This document shows positions 40,568 to 53,112 of a stretch of DNA of 64,000 bases, piece by piece. The notes below the pieces were generated by a model that was given only the letters and a program-made list of their open reading frames with translations, searched no databases and had not been told where the DNA came from. This DNA comes from an uncultured Bacteroidia bacterium (GTDB lineage Bacteria > Bacteroidota > Bacteroidia > Bacteroidales > UBA932): assembly GCA_902789245.1 (NCBI GenBank), contig CADAND010000010.1, positions 107,244-171,243 of the forward strand, read 5' to 3'. Made by a program: the position numbers and the translations under genes. Position 1 is the first letter of the stretch, and the number at the start of each line of letters is the position of its first letter.

Positions 40568-43006
40568 ATGAAAATCCTGAAATTCGGCGGTTCTTCGGTG
40601 GGTACACCGGAGAGCATCCTCAGAGTCAAAGAGATTGTAAGTTCCCGCCAGGAACCCTCCATCGTTGTCGTTTCCGCCCTCGGCGGCGTCACGGACCAGT
40701 TGATCCGCGCCTCCAAGCTGGCGGCGGCCGGCGATGCGGCCTTCCGCGACGAAGTCGCGCAGTTGCGCGCACGGCATCGCGCCGTGTGCGAGGCCGTTGT
40801 GCCCGCCGCTGCCGTCAAGACCGTGGAGACCGAGATGGACACCCTGCTGGACCAGCTGGAGCGCATCTGCGAGGGTATTTATCTGCTGCAGGTCATCCCC
40901 ACGAAGATCTCGCACGAAGTCATGAGCTTCGGCGAGCGGCTCTCCTCGCGCATCGTCACCGCATGCCTCCCCTGCGCCATGCGTTACGACGCCGTCGATT
41001 TCATCAAGACACGCCGTCACGGCCACCGGGACGAGGTGGATCAGGGACTCACTTACGACCTGATTCAGAAGACGTTCCAGGGCTGGAGCCAGACTGGAGC
41101 CTCGGCGGTCGTGCCCGGATTCATCGCCTCCGACGCCGCCACCGGCGAGATCACCACGCTGGGACGCGGGGGCTCCGACTACACCGCCAGCCTGATCGCC
41201 GCTGCGCTTGACGCGGAGCTGCTTGAGATCTGGACCGACGTGGACGGATTCATGACGGCCGACCCGCGCATCATCAAGACTTCCTATGTCATTGACGAGA
41301 TGAGTTACGAGGAGGCCATGGAGCTCTGCAATTTCGGAGCGAAAGTGGTCTATCCGCCTACCCTTTACCCGGTCTGCGCGAAAGGGATTCCCATTCTCAT
41401 CAAGAATACTTTCAATTTGAAAGCAAAGGGCACGATCATCAAGAAAAACGTTACTCCAGGATCCACTTCCATCAAGGGTATCTCCTCCATTGACGACATC
41501 GCCCTGATCACCCTGTCCGGCACCTCCATGGTCGGCATCGTGGGTGTGGACAGCCGCATCTTCGCCGCCCTCACCCAGGAGCAGATCAGCGCCTTCCTCG
41601 TCAGCCAGTCGGCTTCCGAGACGGGCATCTCCATCGGTGTCAGCCGCGCCGACGCCGCCCGCGCCCGGGAAGTCCTCGACGAGGCCTTCGCCCGCGAGAT
41701 CGGTAGCGGCGCCATCAATCCGGTGGAAATCCGCGACGAGCTGGCCGCCGTGGCCGTGATCGGCGAGAACATGAAGCAGCACGCGGGCATCGCCGGCAAG
41801 CTCTTCACCACGCTGGGACGCAACGGCATCAGCGTCATCGCCCTGGCCCAGGGCGCCGCCGAGTCCAACATCTCCTTCATCGTGGAGCGCCGCCAGCTGC
41901 GCAAATCCCTGAACGTCATCCATGACAGTTTCTTCCTTTCCGAATATAAGGAACTCAACCTTTTCCTCTGCGGCATCGGCACCGTCGGCGGCCGCCTGAT
42001 CGCCCAGATCGCACAGCAACGCGAGACGCTCATGCGCACGCGCGGACTTAAAATTAATATCGTCGGCATCGCCCGCAGCACGCGCGCCGTCTTCGACCGC
42101 GCCGGCATCGACCTCGCCCACTGGCAGGAGCGCCTGCAGCAGGACGGCATCGACACCGACCCGCAGCGCCTCAAGGACGAGATCATCGGCATGAACATCT
42201 TCAACTCCGTGTTCGTGGACTGCACGGCCAGCCCGGCCGTCGCGGCGCTCTACGGCGACTTCTTCGACCACGGCATCTCGGTGGTCGCGGCCAACAAGAT
42301 CGCCGCCTCCTCCGACTACGAGAATTACCGCCGGCTCAAGGACCTCGCGCGCAAGCGCAATGTCAAGTGGCTCTTCGAGACCAACGTCGGCGCCGGCCTG
42401 CCCATCATCGGCACCATCAATGACCTGTGCAACTCCGGCGACACCATCCTCAAGCTGGAGGCGGTGCTGAGCGGCACGCTCAACTTCATCTTCAACACCC
42501 TGTCCGCCGACATCCCCTTCAGCGAGACCGTCCGCATGGCCAAGGAGCAGGGCTTCTCCGAGCCCGACCCGCGCATCGACCTCTCCGGCAAGGATGTCAT
42601 CCGCAAGCTGGTCATCCTCTCCCGCGAGGCGGGATATGAAGTGAACCAGAAGGACGTGGAGGCCAACCTCTTCATCCCGAAGGACTTCTTCGACTGCAGC
42701 GAGGAGGAATTCTGGGCCAAGCTCCCCTCCCTCGACGCAGGGTTTGAGGAGCGTCGCCGCAAGCTGGAAGCCGAAGGCAAACGCTGGCGTTTCGTCGCCA
42801 AGATGGAGAACGGCAAGTACTCCGTCTCCCTGCAGGCCGTGGAGAACCAGCACTCCTTCTATGTGCTGGACGGCTCCAACAACATTGTCCTGCTGACCAC
42901 CGAGCGTTACAACCGCCACCCGATGCTCATCCAGGGCTACGGCGCGGGCGCGGACGTGACGGCCGCCGGCGTATTCGCCGACATCATGAGCATCGCAAAC
43001 ATCTAA
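40568..43006 (+). CDS. thrA: Bifunctional aspartokinase/homoserine dehydrogenase
   Basis: Catalyses the first and third steps of threonine synthesis; 812 residues. The kinase domain (about 1-295) begins MKILKFGGSSVGTPES and has LGRGGSDYTASL near 198-209. ACT regulatory domains (about 305-455) imply threonine feedback. The dehydrogenase domain (464-812) has the NADP fold LCGIGTVGG and AANKIAAS. It is the first gene of the plus-strand thrA-thrB-thrC-asd-purU run, divergent from ilvD. Confidence 0.96.
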   Translation: MKILKFGGSSVGTPESILRVKEIVSSRQEPSIVVVSALGGVTDQLIRASKLAAAGDAAFRDEVAQLRARHRAVCEAVVPAAAVKTVETEMDTLLDQLERICEGIYLLQVIPTKISHEVMSFGERLSSRIVTACLPCAMRYDAVDFIKTRRHGHRDEVDQGLTYDLIQKTFQGWSQTGASAVVPGFIASDAATGEITTLGRGGSDYTASLIAAALDAELLEIWTDVDGFMTADPRIIKTSYVIDEMSYEEAMELCNFGAKVVYPPTLYPVCAKGIPILIKNTFNLKAKGTIIKKNVTPGSTSIKGISSIDDIALITLSGTSMVGIVGVDSRIFAALTQEQISAFLVSQSASETGISIGVSRADAARAREVLDEAFAREIGSGAINPVEIRDELAAVAVIGENMKQHAGIAGKLFTTLGRNGISVIALAQGAAESNISFIVERRQLRKSLNVIHDSFFLSEYKELNLFLCGIGTVGGRLIAQIAQQRETLMRTRGLKINIVGIARSTRAVFDRAGIDLAHWQERLQQDGIDTDPQRLKDEIIGMNIFNSVFVDCTASPAVAALYGDFFDHGISVVAANKIAASSDYENYRRLKDLARKRNVKWLFETNVGAGLPIIGTINDLCNSGDTILKLEAVLSGTLNFIFNTLSADIPFSETVRMAKEQGFSEPDPRIDLSGKDVIRKLVILSREAGYEVNQKDVEANLFIPKDFFDCSEEEFWAKLPSLDAGFEERRRKLEAEGKRWRFVAKMENGKYSVSLQAVENQHSFYVLDGSNNIVLLTTERYNRHPMLIQGYGAGADVTAAGVFADIMSIANI

Positions 43007-43019
43007 CGGAACGGGAATT

Positions 43020-43946
43020 ATGAAAAAAATCAAAGTATTCGCCCCCGCCTCCATCGCCAACCTCGGCTGTGGTTTCGACGTGATGGGCATGGCCCTCGAC
43101 GAAGTCGGAGATGTGCTGGAAATGACCCTCGAGGAGGAGGGCTCCGGCATCTCCATCGTCAACGATACGGACGTTCCCCTGCCGGAAGCCGTCGAAGACA
43201 ACGTCGTCACGCCCGTCATCCGGAAATTCTTCGCGATGACCGGCCGGAGCGGACACGTGGACATTCGCATCGTCAAGAAGATTTATCCCGGATCCGGCAT
43301 CGGTTCCAGCGCCGCCTCGAGCGCCGCGGCCGCTTTCGGCATCAACGAGCTCTTCGGCGCACCGCTGTCCGAGGAGGACGTGGTCATCTGCGCCATGGAG
43401 GGTGAAAATCTCGCCAGCGGCGGCTACCACGCCGACAACGCAGCGCCGGCCGTCATGGGCGGCATCACGCTGATCCGCGGCTACGAACCGCTGGACATCA
43501 TCAAGCTGCCCGTCCCGGGCAACCTCTACTGCCCCGTCATCCATCCCCACCTGATGGTCTCCACCAAAGAGGCGCGCAGCATTCTCCCCAAAGAGATTCC
43601 GATGCACACCGCCATCACCCAGTGGGGCAACGTGGGCGGCCTCGTGGCCGGCCTCTGCACCGGCAACATCGAGCTGGTGGGCCGCGCCATGCGAGACGCT
43701 GTTGCGGAACCCTACCGCAAGGGCTTCATCCCGGGTTTCGACGAGCTCCGCTCCAAGCTGCTCGGCGCCGGCGCCCTCGCGATGAACATCAGCGGCTCGG
43801 GCCCGTCCGTGTTCGCCCTGGCGAACCGCAGCGACATCGCCCAACGCGTGGGCTCCATCATGGAGCGCCACTTCGCCCAGCAGGGCATCCTTTCTGAAAC
43901 TTACGTGGTCAAGGTGTCCAACAAGGGCGCCCGCCTGATTGCCTGA
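43020..43946 (+). CDS. thrB: Homoserine kinase (GHMP family)
   Basis: Phosphorylates homoserine for threonine synthase; 308 residues. APASIANLGCGFDVMGMAL and the ATP loop YPGSGIGSSAASSAAAA define the GHMP kinase; NISGSGPSVFAL is the C-terminal motif. Lies 13 bases after thrA and 5 bases before thrC. Confidence 0.96.
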   Translation: MKKIKVFAPASIANLGCGFDVMGMALDEVGDVLEMTLEEEGSGISIVNDTDVPLPEAVEDNVVTPVIRKFFAMTGRSGHVDIRIVKKIYPGSGIGSSAASSAAAAFGINELFGAPLSEEDVVICAMEGENLASGGYHADNAAPAVMGGITLIRGYEPLDIIKLPVPGNLYCPVIHPHLMVSTKEARSILPKEIPMHTAITQWGNVGGLVAGLCTGNIELVGRAMRDAVAEPYRKGFIPGFDELRSKLLGAGALAMNISGSGPSVFALANRSDIAQRVGSIMERHFAQQGILSETYVVKVSNKGARLIA

Positions 43947-48804: not shown

Positions 48805-51747
48805 CTACTTAATCATCGCGCGGCCGGTGCGGCCGTCGATGCAGATCTTCAGCTCTTCCTCAAAATGGACCTGGCGCAGGTACTCCGTCTCGAATGCGGC
48901 CGGCATGGCGTCCAGGCGCGCCGCGTCGAAGCACTCGCCCTCGCGGGCGTAGGGATTGACATTGACGTAGCCTGCGTTGAAGGAGGTCATGTTCTGGAAG
49001 AAATGCGTGCCCTGGCTGGGATCCACGCGGAAGTTCTCCAGGCAGCATTCCACGATGGCGCGCGCCTCGGAGATGTCGCTCCACTGCACCGGCACGCCCA
49101 GCGACGGGATGCTGGAGCCCCAGCGGCCATAGCCTACCAGGACGTAGTTGCGTCCCTCCTGGCGCATCTGCGCGTTGAGCGCCTTCAGCTCGGCGGCCAT
49201 CTCACGCGTCTTCAGCACGTCGAAGGCAGACTCCTTGAGGTACACGATGTCGTGCACGCCCTGGATCCAGCCCGGGCCGATGGCGCTGCCGGAACTGACC
49301 AGCGCACCGTCGGCGTCGATGTCGCTCCAGTCCACCTCGGCATCCAGGCCGTCGGCGGAGATGGGCCGTACCTGCAGCACGTTGAAGATGGCGGGGCTGT
49401 CTGCTCCGACGTCCAGGTTGGCGGCAAACTCGATCTCGACGCCGCACTTGACTTCCTTCTGCGTGATCTCAAGCAGTTCGTTCAGGATGTCCGCCAGCGG
49501 GAAGGTGTTGTATTTGAGGATGTGCGCGAAGGTGACGAATTTCGGGCCGGCCGGAGCCGGAGAATCCACCATGCGCTGGTTCTCGTAGTCATAGGTGGAG
49601 ACCACGCGGGAGAAGTTGCGGAACGCGCCGCAGTCCGTGACCGGGATGCGGTCCAGGTTGACCGCGTCGTCGACGCTGGTCTTGAACTTATCCGGCTGAA
49701 GATCAAGCGCATACATGGCCTGCTGCGTCTCCGTCATCACCAGCTCGGGTGTAGAAGTCTGCAGGACATTGCGCGGGTATTTCGGGGAGAAACGGAGCAC
49801 CTGGTCACCGTCCACGACGGCCTTGCCCAGGCCCAGGGCGACCTTGGCGACGCCGTCCTCCGGCGCCTCATAGCCGATCGGGTAGAAGTTGACCGAACGG
49901 GCCACGCCCGAGAAGGTCGGGAAGAAATAGCCCCGGTCCTCGCTGCCGCAGATCTCCTGCAGCACGATGGCCATCTTCTCCTCGGAGAGCACGTTCGCCG
50001 TGGCCGTGATGTAGCCTCTCGACGAGGCGAAATACACGGAGGCGTAAACGCTCTTGATAGCCTTGGACAGCAGGCGGAGCTGCTGGTCCTCGTTCTCCGT
50101 GTGCGGGATCATATAAGTCGAATAGACCCCGGCAAACGGCTGATAGTAAGAATCCTCCAGCTTCGACGACGAGCGCACGGCCAGCGGCTTGCGGACGTTG
50201 CGGATGAAGACGCGAAGCGCCTCCGTCAGCTCCAGAGGCAGGGTCGAAGCCACGAACTCAGAGAGGATCTCGGCATCCGACAGGTCGGAATTGATGACGT
50301 ATTTCAGACCATTCTCACGGATGAAACGGTCGAAATACTCCGTCGTGATCACGAGCGTACGCGGCACGAGCACGCGCACGTCTTCCCACTTGTCGTAGAG
50401 ATCGTATTTCTGGAGGATATGGTTCAAGAACGCCAGGCCGCGCGCCTTGCCGCCCAGGGACCCTGAGCCGATGCGGGCGAACCAGATGGCGTCGTTGTAG
50501 GTCTCCGGTTCGAAGAGCGCCACGACGCCGAGTCCCTGGCTGATGCGGTAATCTCGGATCATGCGGAGGTTCATCTCACGCACGTGGGCAACGTCTTCGT
50601 CGGAATGGATGCGGATCGGGCGGAACAGGTCGCCGATCTGGAAAATACCGCGGCCGTAGAGCCAGCGGGAGATATAATTCTTGTCGGCGAGCTCGCGCAG
50701 CGCCCGGTCGGACATGCCCGCCACGACCTGCTCGAACTCGTAGAGGTTGCGGGCGCGTGCCGTGACGCGGCCCGTGTCGGGATCCGTGACCACGAAGTCA
50801 CCGAAACCGAATTCGCGGCCGATGTACTCCGAAACCTCCTGCGTGAGGGTCTTGGAGCGCTTGTGCACGAAGCCCACGCCGAGCTGCTCGGCCACGGCGC
50901 GCATGCTCTCCTGCGAGGACTGCATCAGGAACGGCAGCATCGGGTTCTCCTGCCGCACCACGCGGCAGAGATCGATACCGGCATCGATTTTCTCCTGCTC
51001 GGGCTTGTCGCCCTTGTGCAGGACGAAGCCGATGTCGGAGATGATGCCGATGACATTGGATTTGTACTTCTGGTAATAATCATAGGCCTCGTCGTAACAC
51101 GTGGCCATGAGGATCTTCGGCCGCGCGCGCTTGCGCAGGAACTGCTGCTCCTCGTTGAGCGCGTCGCGCACCGCCTCGCTGTTCTGCTGCAGCACGAGGC
51201 GGTACAGCAACGGCAGATAAGTCGAGTAATAACGGACGGAGTCTTCCACCAGCAGGATGACGCGGGCCCCCATCTCCAGGCAGTCGTGCTCGGCATTGAG
51301 CTTGTCCTCCAGGAGTTTGATGATGGCGATGAGCACGTCGGTACTGTTGTTCCAGCAGAACACATAGTCAATCCCGGCATGGTCACATTCCGCGATCTTG
51401 CGATAGATCTCCCGGGAGAAAGAAGACAGCAAGACGATCGGCGTGTCCGGCGCGAGCTGCTTCGCCTCCACGGAGAAGGAGAAGACGTCGAGCTTGCCGA
51501 CGTTGTACATCGTGATGATGAGGTCAAACCCCTCCCCGCCCTTCAGGATTTCGAGCGCCTCGAGCGTGGACTCGGCCCGCACGATGGCGGGCGGGTTGCT
51601 CAGGTTGAGCTCGGAGTACTCCTTCGTGATCAGGGCTTCGATGTGCCCGTCCTCCTCCAGGGAGAAACTGTCATAATTGTTACAAACCAGGAGGATTCGG
51701 CGAATCCTCCTGGCCATTAATTGTGTGTAGTCCGTGTTATTGCTCAT
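48805..51747 (-). CDS. Receiver-domain protein fused to a PPDK-type ATP-grasp (PEP/pyruvate-binding) domain
   Basis: A 980-residue cytoplasmic protein. Residues about 16-150 look like a degenerate receiver domain (the acceptor position reads ITMYN, no Asp). Residues 160-310 resemble an intact receiver: ILLVEDS (acidic pair 168-169), IISDIGF (Asp238), MQSS (277-278) and VHKRS (Lys296). From about 400 a PPDK N-terminal ATP-binding domain follows: GSGSLGGKARGLAF (427-440), AVRSSSKLEDSYYQPFAGVY (523-542), IVLQEICGS and FNVLQVRPIS (788-797). The phosphohistidine swivelling domain and the PEP-binding barrel of PPDK or PEP synthase are absent; 800-980 is a separate C-terminal region. It starts 9 bases after gdhA. 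It cannot be a normal PPDK; its reaction is unknown. Confidence 0.85.
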   Translation of the reverse strand: MSNNTDYTQLMARRIRRILLVCNNYDSFSLEEDGHIEALITKEYSELNLSNPPAIVRAESTLEALEILKGGEGFDLIITMYNVGKLDVFSFSVEAKQLAPDTPIVLLSSFSREIYRKIAECDHAGIDYVFCWNNSTDVLIAIIKLLEDKLNAEHDCLEMGARVILLVEDSVRYYSTYLPLLYRLVLQQNSEAVRDALNEEQQFLRKRARPKILMATCYDEAYDYYQKYKSNVIGIISDIGFVLHKGDKPEQEKIDAGIDLCRVVRQENPMLPFLMQSSQESMRAVAEQLGVGFVHKRSKTLTQEVSEYIGREFGFGDFVVTDPDTGRVTARARNLYEFEQVVAGMSDRALRELADKNYISRWLYGRGIFQIGDLFRPIRIHSDEDVAHVREMNLRMIRDYRISQGLGVVALFEPETYNDAIWFARIGSGSLGGKARGLAFLNHILQKYDLYDKWEDVRVLVPRTLVITTEYFDRFIRENGLKYVINSDLSDAEILSEFVASTLPLELTEALRVFIRNVRKPLAVRSSSKLEDSYYQPFAGVYSTYMIPHTENEDQQLRLLSKAIKSVYASVYFASSRGYITATANVLSEEKMAIVLQEICGSEDRGYFFPTFSGVARSVNFYPIGYEAPEDGVAKVALGLGKAVVDGDQVLRFSPKYPRNVLQTSTPELVMTETQQAMYALDLQPDKFKTSVDDAVNLDRIPVTDCGAFRNFSRVVSTYDYENQRMVDSPAPAGPKFVTFAHILKYNTFPLADILNELLEITQKEVKCGVEIEFAANLDVGADSPAIFNVLQVRPISADGLDAEVDWSDIDADGALVSSGSAIGPGWIQGVHDIVYLKESAFDVLKTREMAAELKALNAQMRQEGRNYVLVGYGRWGSSIPSLGVPVQWSDISEARAIVECCLENFRVDPSQGTHFFQNMTSFNAGYVNVNPYAREGECFDAARLDAMPAAFETEYLRQVHFEEELKICIDGRTGRAMIK

Positions 51748-51756
51748 AGAGACGAT

Positions 51757-53112
51757 TTAGACCAGACCCTGAGCCACCATCGCGTTGGCAACCTTGATGA
51801 AGCCGGCGAGGTTGGCACCCTTGACGTAGTTGATGTAGCCGTCCTCCTCGGTGCCGTACTTGATGCAGGCAGCGTGGATGTCGGACATGATACGGTGCAG
51901 GTGCTCGTCGACTTCCTCGGAAGTCCACTTCTGGCGGATCGAGTTCTGGGTCATCTCCAGGCCGGATGTCGCCACGCCGCCGGCGTTGGACGCCTTGCCC
52001 GGCGAGTAGAGCATCTTCTTCGCCTGGAAGATGGCGATGGCCTCAGGCGTAGAGGGCATGTTCGCACCCTCGACAACGCACCAGCAGCCGCCCTTCACCA
52101 GGTTCTCCGCGTCGGCCTTCTCGATCTCGTTCTGCGTGGCGCAAGGGAGCGCGATGTCGCAGGGGATGCGCCAGGGGCGCTCGCCCGGGAAGTACTGGGC
52201 CTTCGGATATTTGGTGACATATTCTTTGATACGACCGCGGCGGATGTTCTTGAGCTCGAGCACGAACTGGTGCTTCTCCTCGTCGAAGCCGTCAGGATCG
52301 TAGATAAAGCCGTCGGAATCGGAGAGCGTGACCACCTTGGCACCCAGGCGCATGGCCTTCTGGGCGGCGTACTGGGCCACGTTGCCGGAGCCGGACACGA
52401 CCACGGTCTTGCCTTCGAAGGACTCACCGCGCGTGGCGAGCATCTCCTGGGCGAAGTAGCAAACGCCATAACCCGTCGCTTCCGTACGGAGGAGGCTGCC
52501 GCCGAAGGGCAGGCCCTTGCCGGTCAGCGTACCCGTGAACTCGTCACGCAGACGCTTGTACTGGCCGAAGAGGTAACCGACCTCGCGGCCGCCCACGCCG
52601 ATGTCACCGGCCGGCACATCCGTGTCGGGGCCGATGTGGCGGGAAAGCTCGGTCATGAAACTCTGGCAGAAACGCATCACCTCGGCGTCGGACTTGCCAC
52701 GCGGGCTGAAGTCGGAGCCACCCTTGCCGCCACCCATCGGGAGCGTGGTGAGGGAGTTCTTGAAGGTCTGCTCGAAAGCGAGGAACTTCAGGATGCTGAG
52801 GTTCACGCTGGCGTGGAAACGGATACCGCCCTTGTAGGGGCCGATCGCGCTGTTCATCTGCACGCGGTAACCACGGTTGATGTGGATCTCGCCCTTGTCG
52901 TCGGTCCAGGGGACGCGGAACATGATGACGCGCTCCGGTTCAACCATGCGCTCAAGGATCTTGAGGTCCATCAGATGAGGGTAAGAGGTGACATAAGGTG
53001 CAACACTTTCCACCACCTCACGGACAGCCTGGTGAAATTCTTTTTCGCCAGGGTTGCGTGCGATCAGTTCATCCATGAACCGGTCGACGTAGTTCTGTGT
53101 GAATTTGTCCAT
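51757..53112 (-). CDS. gdhA: Glutamate dehydrogenase (hexameric, NADP-type)
   Basis: Reversibly aminates 2-oxoglutarate; 451 residues, the size of the small hexameric class. PMGGGKGGSDF carries the catalytic lysine, IGPYKGGIRFH the substrate lysine, PAGDIGVGGREVGYL and the dinucleotide fold SGSGNVAQYAAQKA follow; SDSDGF after the second strand suits NADP-type enzymes but does not prove it. Nine bases before the receiver/PPDK gene, so the two are almost surely co-transcribed. Divergent from hsp20. Confidence 0.96.
   Translation of the reverse strand: MDKFTQNYVDRFMDELIARNPGEKEFHQAVREVVESVAPYVTSYPHLMDLKILERMVEPERVIMFRVPWTDDKGEIHINRGYRVQMNSAIGPYKGGIRFHASVNLSILKFLAFEQTFKNSLTTLPMGGGKGGSDFSPRGKSDAEVMRFCQSFMTELSRHIGPDTDVPAGDIGVGGREVGYLFGQYKRLRDEFTGTLTGKGLPFGGSLLRTEATGYGVCYFAQEMLATRGESFEGKTVVVSGSGNVAQYAAQKAMRLGAKVVTLSDSDGFIYDPDGFDEEKHQFVLELKNIRRGRIKEYVTKYPKAQYFPGERPWRIPCDIALPCATQNEIEKADAENLVKGGCWCVVEGANMPSTPEAIAIFQAKKMLYSPGKASNAGGVATSGLEMTQNSIRQKWTSEEVDEHLHRIMSDIHAACIKYGTEEDGYINYVKGANLAGFIKVANAMVAQGLV

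Follow-up and report, generated by a model that had tools for sequence, protein, structure and literature searches.

The PPDKR locus

The window analysed here is a stretch of 64,000 nucleotides from an uncultured Bacteroidia bacterium (assembly GCA_902789245.1, contig CADAND010000010.1, positions 107,244 to 171,243 of the forward strand). It carries a gene for a protein of 980 amino acids, here named PPDKR, directly downstream of a glutamate dehydrogenase (GDH) gene, Table 1. The protein consists of two receiver domains, a linker, an ATP-grasp domain of the PPDK/PEP synthase type and a conserved C-terminal domain (804-980), the last of which had been missed in an earlier sequence-only reading of the window. 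We put the probability that PPDKR serves the adjacent GDH as its dedicated, ATP-dependent regulator at roughly 60%.

The genome of the window has a size of 2.28 Mb and contains a single copy of PPDKR. The best 80 of 301 relatives were kept; they are 64-99% identical to the window protein and have a conserved length. The nearest named relatives come from metagenome-assembled genomes (MAGs) of Bacteroidia/Bacteroidales, with 98-99% identity. From the nine bases that separate the two genes, gdh and PPDKR are likely to be co-transcribed.

Table 1. Features of the PPDKR-GDH locus. In the columns: the feature, its position in the window, the strand, and remarks with the evidence used.
Feature	Position	Strand	Remarks and evidence
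PPDKR gene (receiver-receiver-PPDK_N ATP-grasp-C-terminal domain)	48805..51747	-	ATG start at 51747, 980 aa
Receiver 1, residues 17-158	51274..51699	-	degenerate, putative pseudo-receiver; AlphaFold2 model, residue 80, profile likeness to receiver 2
Receiver 2, residues 163-313	50809..51261	-	predicted intact active site E168/D169, D238, S277, K296; AlphaFold2, conservation, Foldseek
Linker, residues 314-429	50461..50808	-	mostly helical; AlphaFold2 secondary structure
PPDK/PEP-synthase type ATP-grasp, residues 430-803	49339..50460	-	Pfam PF01326, conserved residues, Foldseek
C-terminal domain, residues 804-980	48808..49338	-	GxGRWGS and SxG[S/T]HFF[Q/H] motifs; AlphaFold2, conservation, without known fold match
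His915 codon	49003..49005	-	candidate phospho-acceptor or catalytic residue; invariant, predicted helix start
Gap from gdh stop (TAA) to PPDKR ATG	51748..51756	-	9 bases
Glutamate dehydrogenase (GDH) gene	51757..53112	-	451 aa, proposed partner/target; directly upstream of PPDKR

Receiver domains

According to the AlphaFold2 model (predicted local distance difference test, pLDDT, 81.9; predicted template modelling score, pTM, 0.72), PPDKR starts with two receiver-like folds, at residues 17-158 and 163-313. The alignment used for the modelling contained 40 of 81 sequences (39 relatives and the window protein), picked at less than 88% identity. The Pfam match to Response_reg is below its cut-off, E 1.4e-4. 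The sequence-only reading had described one degenerate and one intact receiver, and had named residues 160-310 as the place where structure prediction should show a receiver fold; the model agrees on both points. When the profiles of the two receivers are compared with hhalign, they match with a probability of 90.6%.

The conservation of single residues was counted in 52 full-length sequences, i.e. the window protein and 51 sequences from 42 wider loci, and four receiver-less sequences were kept apart. In receiver 2, E168, D238 and K296 are found in 52/52 sequences, D169 in 50/52 and S277 in 51/52, with a T in the remaining one. In the model, strands beta1, beta3, beta4 and beta5 of this domain end at or adjoin E168/D169, D238, S277 and K296. 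The earlier reading had named these same residues, and only its alternative to S277, S278, does not hold, as this position is variable (S in 31/52). Judged by its predicted fold and its conserved residues, receiver 2 is a receiver with the phospho-acceptor anatomy in place, which makes PPDKR a response regulator by anatomy. At residue 80 of receiver 1, the expected place of the phospho-acceptor, the 52 sequences have T (42), M (8) or W (2), and the domain is, on the same kind of evidence, a pseudo-receiver without the phospho-acceptor Asp.

The Foldseek matches of the receiver part include PleD, tandem-receiver structures (3luf), PorX and PhoB. In PleD-type proteins a degenerate and an intact receiver are paired, and the output is enzymatic. 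PPDKR resembles PleD, 3luf and PorX, regulators with tandem receivers or enzymatic output, in the fold of its receivers, but its output is a PPDK-type ATP-grasp domain followed by an unmatched domain, and GDH lies alongside.

The partner histidine kinase had been said not to be nearby. Indeed, none of the 14 HATPase_c matches in the genome, and none of its 10 Response_reg matches, is located on the contig of the window (C10). The receiver is therefore an orphan here.

In some other genomes a kinase is found between two copies of the pair. In these double loci (L132, L134, L136, L137, L138) the order is GDH, regulator, a PAS-HisKA_3 kinase with a LuxR-type response regulator, GDH, regulator and a GDH-family gene. 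The kinase and the LuxR-type protein were identified by a Pfam scan in L132, and by cluster membership in L134, L136, L137 and L138. This PAS-HisKA_3 kinase may be the partner of the PPDKR receiver.

ATP-grasp domain

Pfam assigns residues 430-803 to PPDK_N (PF01326) with an E-value of 5.2e-36. We take the ATP-site residues, from general knowledge of PPDK, to be K434, R525, E771/E773 and Q792/R794. K434, R525, E771, E773 and Q792 are kept in 52/52 sequences, while R794 is kept in 50/52 and is K in the other two. All of these are also invariant in the 40-sequence alignment. The four receiver-less sequences keep K434, R525, E773 and Q792, and have D in place of E771 in three cases.

Neither the phosphohistidine domain (PF00391) nor the PEP barrel (PF02896) is listed for PPDKR by Pfam at E-values up to 10, in line with the PPDK domain lacking both in the sequence-only reading. 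PPDKR is not a PPDK or a PEP synthase. With these enzymes (PF01326, PF00391 and PF02896) it shares the ATP-grasp domain and the conserved ATP-site residues, but it has a C-terminal domain of its own, N-terminal receivers and no matches to PF00391 or PF02896. Contig C17 carries a distinct PPDK-like gene that combines PF01326 with PF00391, the only PF00391 of the genome.

For the ATP-grasp part, Foldseek ranks rifampin phosphotransferase (5hv1-5hv3) and HpeI (9goj) best, at 14-16% identity. Rifampin phosphotransferase has a swivel His domain between the ATP and the substrate domains. PPDKR differs from it and from HpeI by its receivers, and no swivel His domain was found in it with Pfam, Foldseek or hhalign. 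It may work like a phosphotransferase, outside those families.

Rifampin phosphotransferase and HpeI act on small molecules. These fold matches would fit a PPDKR that is a receiver-controlled phosphotransferase or ligase, in which the ATP-grasp and C-terminal domains use a small molecule near the 2-oxoglutarate/glutamate branch and GDH is only a pathway neighbour. The partial NCBIfam matches, to the prodigiosin ligase PigC and to PEP synthases, point in the same direction but are far under the cut-offs, and the invariant motifs of the C-terminal domain resemble an active site. The genomic data described below argue for GDH itself.

C-terminal domain

The residues G874, R875, W876, G877, S911, G913, H915, F916 and F917 are kept in 56/56 sequences (52 full-length and four receiver-less). 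When residues 798-980 are modelled alone, AlphaFold2 gives a pLDDT of 90.5 and a pTM of 0.89. H915 is at the start of a helix, 914-922 in the whole model and 915-922 in the domain modelled alone. By comparison, conservation is lowest in the linker, where segment 331-429 has a mean of 0.57, the minimum among six segments.

Pfam has no match to this domain in the window member, and gives two stray matches (E 0.15) among 40 members. A Foldseek search of the PDB has a best E-value of 0.12, and no swivel enzyme is recognisable among the 50 matches listed out of 795. With hhalign, the probability of a match to two swivel profiles is 0.2%, while a positive control with distant swivel groups reaches 99.5%. 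Multi-sequence profiles were used here. The ATP-grasp region compared by hhalign with one PPDK sequence obtained only 3% despite the Pfam E-value of 5e-36, so single-sequence templates are insensitive. A hidden phosphohistidine domain at 800-980, which the sequence-only reading had named as the finding that would overturn it, is not seen by Pfam, profile-profile or fold search, although the invariant H915 is present. The best profile match among PDB sequences, KtrA, has a whole-sequence E-value of 0.0035 but E-values of 5.6 and 15 for its single stretches, and was taken as chance.

Given the invariant H915 at a helix start, a very divergent phosphohistidine domain is conceivable. PPDKR would then be a very divergent two-domain dikinase, in which the C-terminal domain is an altered swivel, H915 is the carrier and the phosphate goes to GDH or to a metabolite. 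The invariant G[S/T]H at the helix start, followed by a strand, fits such an enzyme, and the order of strands and helices, in our reading, resembles that of the PPDK swivel domain. However, the 0.2% of hhalign against its 99.5% control, and the lack of a swivel enzyme among the listed Foldseek matches, make this improbable.

The C-terminal domain is also found in receiver-less proteins. These are either about 580 amino acids long, with the ATP-grasp and the C-terminal domain, or about 1060, with an added nucleotidyltransferase domain. As the pair of domains occurs without receivers, it probably forms the core of the function, with the receivers as an input module.

Genomic linkage to GDH

The sequence-only reading had noted that PPDKR is linked to gdhA by a gap of nine bases. 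This observation is correct, and the association turns out to be phylum-wide. Among the 80 Bacteroidales loci, which are the best 80 of the 301 relatives, 59 have a GDH gene on the same strand within 600 base pairs (bp) upstream of PPDKR. Of the others, four end at a contig edge, two have GDH further off and 15 have no GDH in the stretch. GDH is present elsewhere in all 17 Bacteroidales genomes in which PPDKR is away from it.

The wider set consists of 43 loci. Apart from the window genome, 53 sampled genomes have a full-length copy, and 40 of these contributed loci, as did three records of a plasmid collection. The three are the only PPDKR matches in that collection, through which alone the distribution outside Bacteroidota was surveyed, and all belong to Bacteroidales. 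Of the 52 full-length copies in these loci, 42 have their nearest GDH within 600 bp, four have it further away and six have none in the stretch. In the 42 adjacent cases GDH is upstream in tandem (29), downstream in tandem (7), divergent (4) or convergent (2). PPDKR is, for example, divergent from the annotated gdhA in Parabacteroides distasonis and from GDH in Phocaeicola massiliensis. In the 13 full-length-copy genomes beyond the wider loci, the coordinates place a GDH within 600 bp in ten. When the proteins of 42 wider neighbourhoods are clustered, the GDH cluster is present in 36 and the next one in 17. The latter was merged from mixed members, among them a LuxR-type regulator (L132) and an annotated sensor kinase (L111).

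Neighbours can also be kept together by common descent alone in close loci, and many of the 80 loci are from MAGs of ruminant Bacteroidales. A chance or passive neighbourhood with no functional link is nevertheless very improbable, as GDH is adjacent in tandem, divergent and convergent order across lineages whose proteins are roughly 36-44% identical, and as the presence and the absence of the two genes go together (see below).

Co-occurrence and paralogue pairing

In a sample of 395 Bacteroidota genomes, with a GDH threshold of E<=1e-60, GDH is found in 54/54 genomes with a full-length PPDKR and in 80/341 of the others (Fisher's test 7.6e-30, not corrected for phylogeny). Two families show a correlated absence as well. 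In f18, all 20 genomes with the full-length protein are GDH-positive, and all four that have only the receiver-less variant are GDH-negative at E<=1e-60. In f36 the corresponding numbers are ten positive and two negative. Taken together, 30/30 full-length genomes have GDH and 6/6 variant-only genomes do not; the denominators are incomplete, as family genomes matching neither query are not all listed. The correlated absence and the 54/54 add to the evidence against a passive neighbourhood.

The same data bear on the small-molecule enzyme introduced above. A GDH that is a mere pathway neighbour fits poorly with the 54/54 co-occurrence, with direct adjacency in varied gene orders and with a GDH cluster in 36/42 neighbourhoods against 17 for the next, and we regard this explanation as unlikely.

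Besides the linked GDH, the window genome has a second, unlinked one (G000, contig C7, about 41973-43295; L209), and the two are 57% identical. In seven loci with two regulator-GDH pairs, the paralogue types of regulator and GDH agree in 21/21 comparisons, which are not mutually independent. Two of the nine two-copy loci (L121, L122) were left out of this test, since they have no assignable upstream partners.

We also compared GDH residues between 103 linked GDHs and 30 GDHs from genomes taken to be PPDKR-less, after dropping matches that span less than 350 amino acids or contain stops. The best interpretable position is S36, with S in 89 of the 94 linked GDHs that have a residue at this position, against 8/30 in the other set. 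As a mark of the partner it was rejected and not used as evidence, since 6/9 unlinked GDHs of PPDKR genomes share it.

A proposed regulator of GDH

In Bacteroidota of the gut and rumen, GDH is a main route by which ammonia enters biomass. We propose the following mechanism. D238 of receiver 2 would be phosphorylated by a histidine kinase from another locus or by a small phosphodonor, and receiver 1 would serve as a pseudo-receiver in dimerisation or in the relay of a conformational change. Phosphorylation would gate the PPDK-type ATP-grasp domain, with ATP bound at K434/R525/E773/Q792/R794. The ATP-grasp and the C-terminal domain (R875-W876-G877, H915) would then transfer phosphate or use ATP in some other way, and GDH would be switched between states of low and high activity by the supply of nitrogen or carbon.

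The sequence-only reading had left the target open as a metabolite or a protein. The link to GDH proved real, and the unspecified target can be narrowed, GDH itself being the most likely one. We infer that the partner is the GDH protein and not a metabolite, and the effect would be an activation. That the effect is covalent, by phosphotransfer, is a more doubtful part of the proposal. In its fullest form, a two-component-gated ATP-grasp enzyme would covalently modify GDH through a domain of new fold with a catalytic His, and so control ammonia assimilation after translation in much of Bacteroidota; we offer this version only tentatively, as the less likely still. Should the control be covalent, a response regulator would act here on a central enzyme of nitrogen metabolism in a way that is new for post-translational control. 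The likeness to GlnE/GlnD, covalent controllers of a nitrogen-assimilation enzyme, is one of concept. A nucleotidyltransferase domain is absent from the window protein, and a modification by PPDKR is conjectural. We found no description of the receiver-ATP-grasp architecture in the open-licence literature, in which papers from subscription journals are mostly not included.

Several observations weigh against a dedicated regulator of the neighbouring GDH. There is no recognisable phosphohistidine domain to carry a phosphoryl group as in PPDK. The stretches without any GDH amount to 15/80 Bacteroidales loci and 6/52 wider copies, and three of the Bacteroidales genomes concerned (G395, G396, G409) show only a more distant type of GDH. 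The GDH closest to PPDKR in L113 and L114 is convergent and groups by its N-terminal sequence with the unlinked GDHs, and a peptidase gene stands between PPDKR and the GDH of the usual type. PPDKR is divergent in L111, L115, L118 and L157, i.e. upstream of GDH and not downstream of it. In the genome sample, a close GDH is present in 80 genomes that lack a full-length PPDKR, so this class of GDH does not depend on PPDKR as a rule. Most GDH-positive genomes of family f7 are without it, and only G107 and G296 have it. G156 (f36) is GDH-positive without a PPDKR match, and G310 (f18) is GDH-positive although its only matches are a short variant and a PPDKR fragment cut off by the end of a contig. 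The agreement of the paralogue types is also expected from joint duplication. Finally, the GDH sequences contain no residue that would convincingly identify the partner, the N-terminal signal at S36 being weak and shared.

Relation to an earlier report on Bacteroides GDH

The sequence-only reading knew of no defined function for this architecture. A published lead does exist, a paper whose title states that one or more genes downstream of gdhA affect the GDH activity of B. thetaiotaomicron (Baggio and Morrison 1996, J. Bacteriol. 178:7212-7220; title cited in PMC4539542). PPDKR is similar to the factor of that report in its position, as it follows gdh immediately in the window (9 bp) and lies downstream of it in the 59/80 Bacteroidales loci. 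The abstract of the paper reportedly describes how some 3 kb of DNA from downstream restored GDH activity in E. coli in trans, and PPDKR has a size of 2.94 kb. Older work on B. fragilis is said to describe a reversible inactivation of GDH in vivo; our literature search found no paper on it.

We consider it moderately probable, as a hypothesis, that PPDKR is this trans-acting factor. The identity is not proven, because PPDKR is divergent in the four loci named above, and thus in some related genera. As a regulator, PPDKR may explain the old report of a GDH activity that depends on a neighbouring gene. For the molecular identity of the downstream factor we found nothing in the open-licence literature, again with subscription papers mostly outside, nor did we find the locus tags BT1970, BT1972 and BT1973 there. 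BT_1969 is named as malic enzyme (PMC8865466) and BT_1971 as catalase (PMC12596196, PMC4595636).

The rescue in E. coli has a second reading. If GDH is inactive in E. coli when the downstream DNA is missing, as reported, PPDKR could equally have a role like that of a chaperone, and the lack of a recognisable phosphohistidine carrier speaks for this reading too. PPDKR would in this case be a non-catalytic allosteric regulator, an energy sensor for ATP/ADP with a phosphate-binding receiver that controls the assembly or folding of GDH by binding only. The conservation of K434, R525, E771, E773 and Q792 in 52/52 sequences, and of H915, R875 and W876 in 56/56, is higher than expected for a pure sensor, and we rate this role as rather improbable, about on a par with the divergent dikinase. 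With PPDKR as the proposed ATP-dependent regulator, and with D238, K434, R525 and H915 as candidate residues, the old question about GDH becomes testable.

Related arrangements in other genomes

In L113 and L114 an S9 prolyl oligopeptidase gene is found between the regulator and the second GDH, and an M24 peptidase gene lies beyond; the Pfam assignments were made in L113 only. This arrangement suggests that the use of peptides is coupled to GDH in some lineages.

One of the plasmid-listed records, L112 (NC_022111.1), has a length of 1.77 Mb and contains PPDKR with no GDH in the 8-kb flanks. From its size, the record is probably a chromosome.

Receiver-less relatives of about 1060 amino acids are found in L126 (3305-6487, -), L139 (3295-6474, -) and L140 (16346-19525, +). 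Those in L139 and L140 are beside GDH-family genes, and the one in L126 is in the same cluster as a GDH-family gene, which adds to the case for a link with GDH. In L126 and L139, Pfam detects the ATP-grasp domain and an NTP_transf_2 domain with an intact GS..DxD motif, while L140 was placed by similarity. A nucleotidyltransferase domain in GDH clusters recalls GlnE/GlnD, and these relatives possibly represent a second mode of control.

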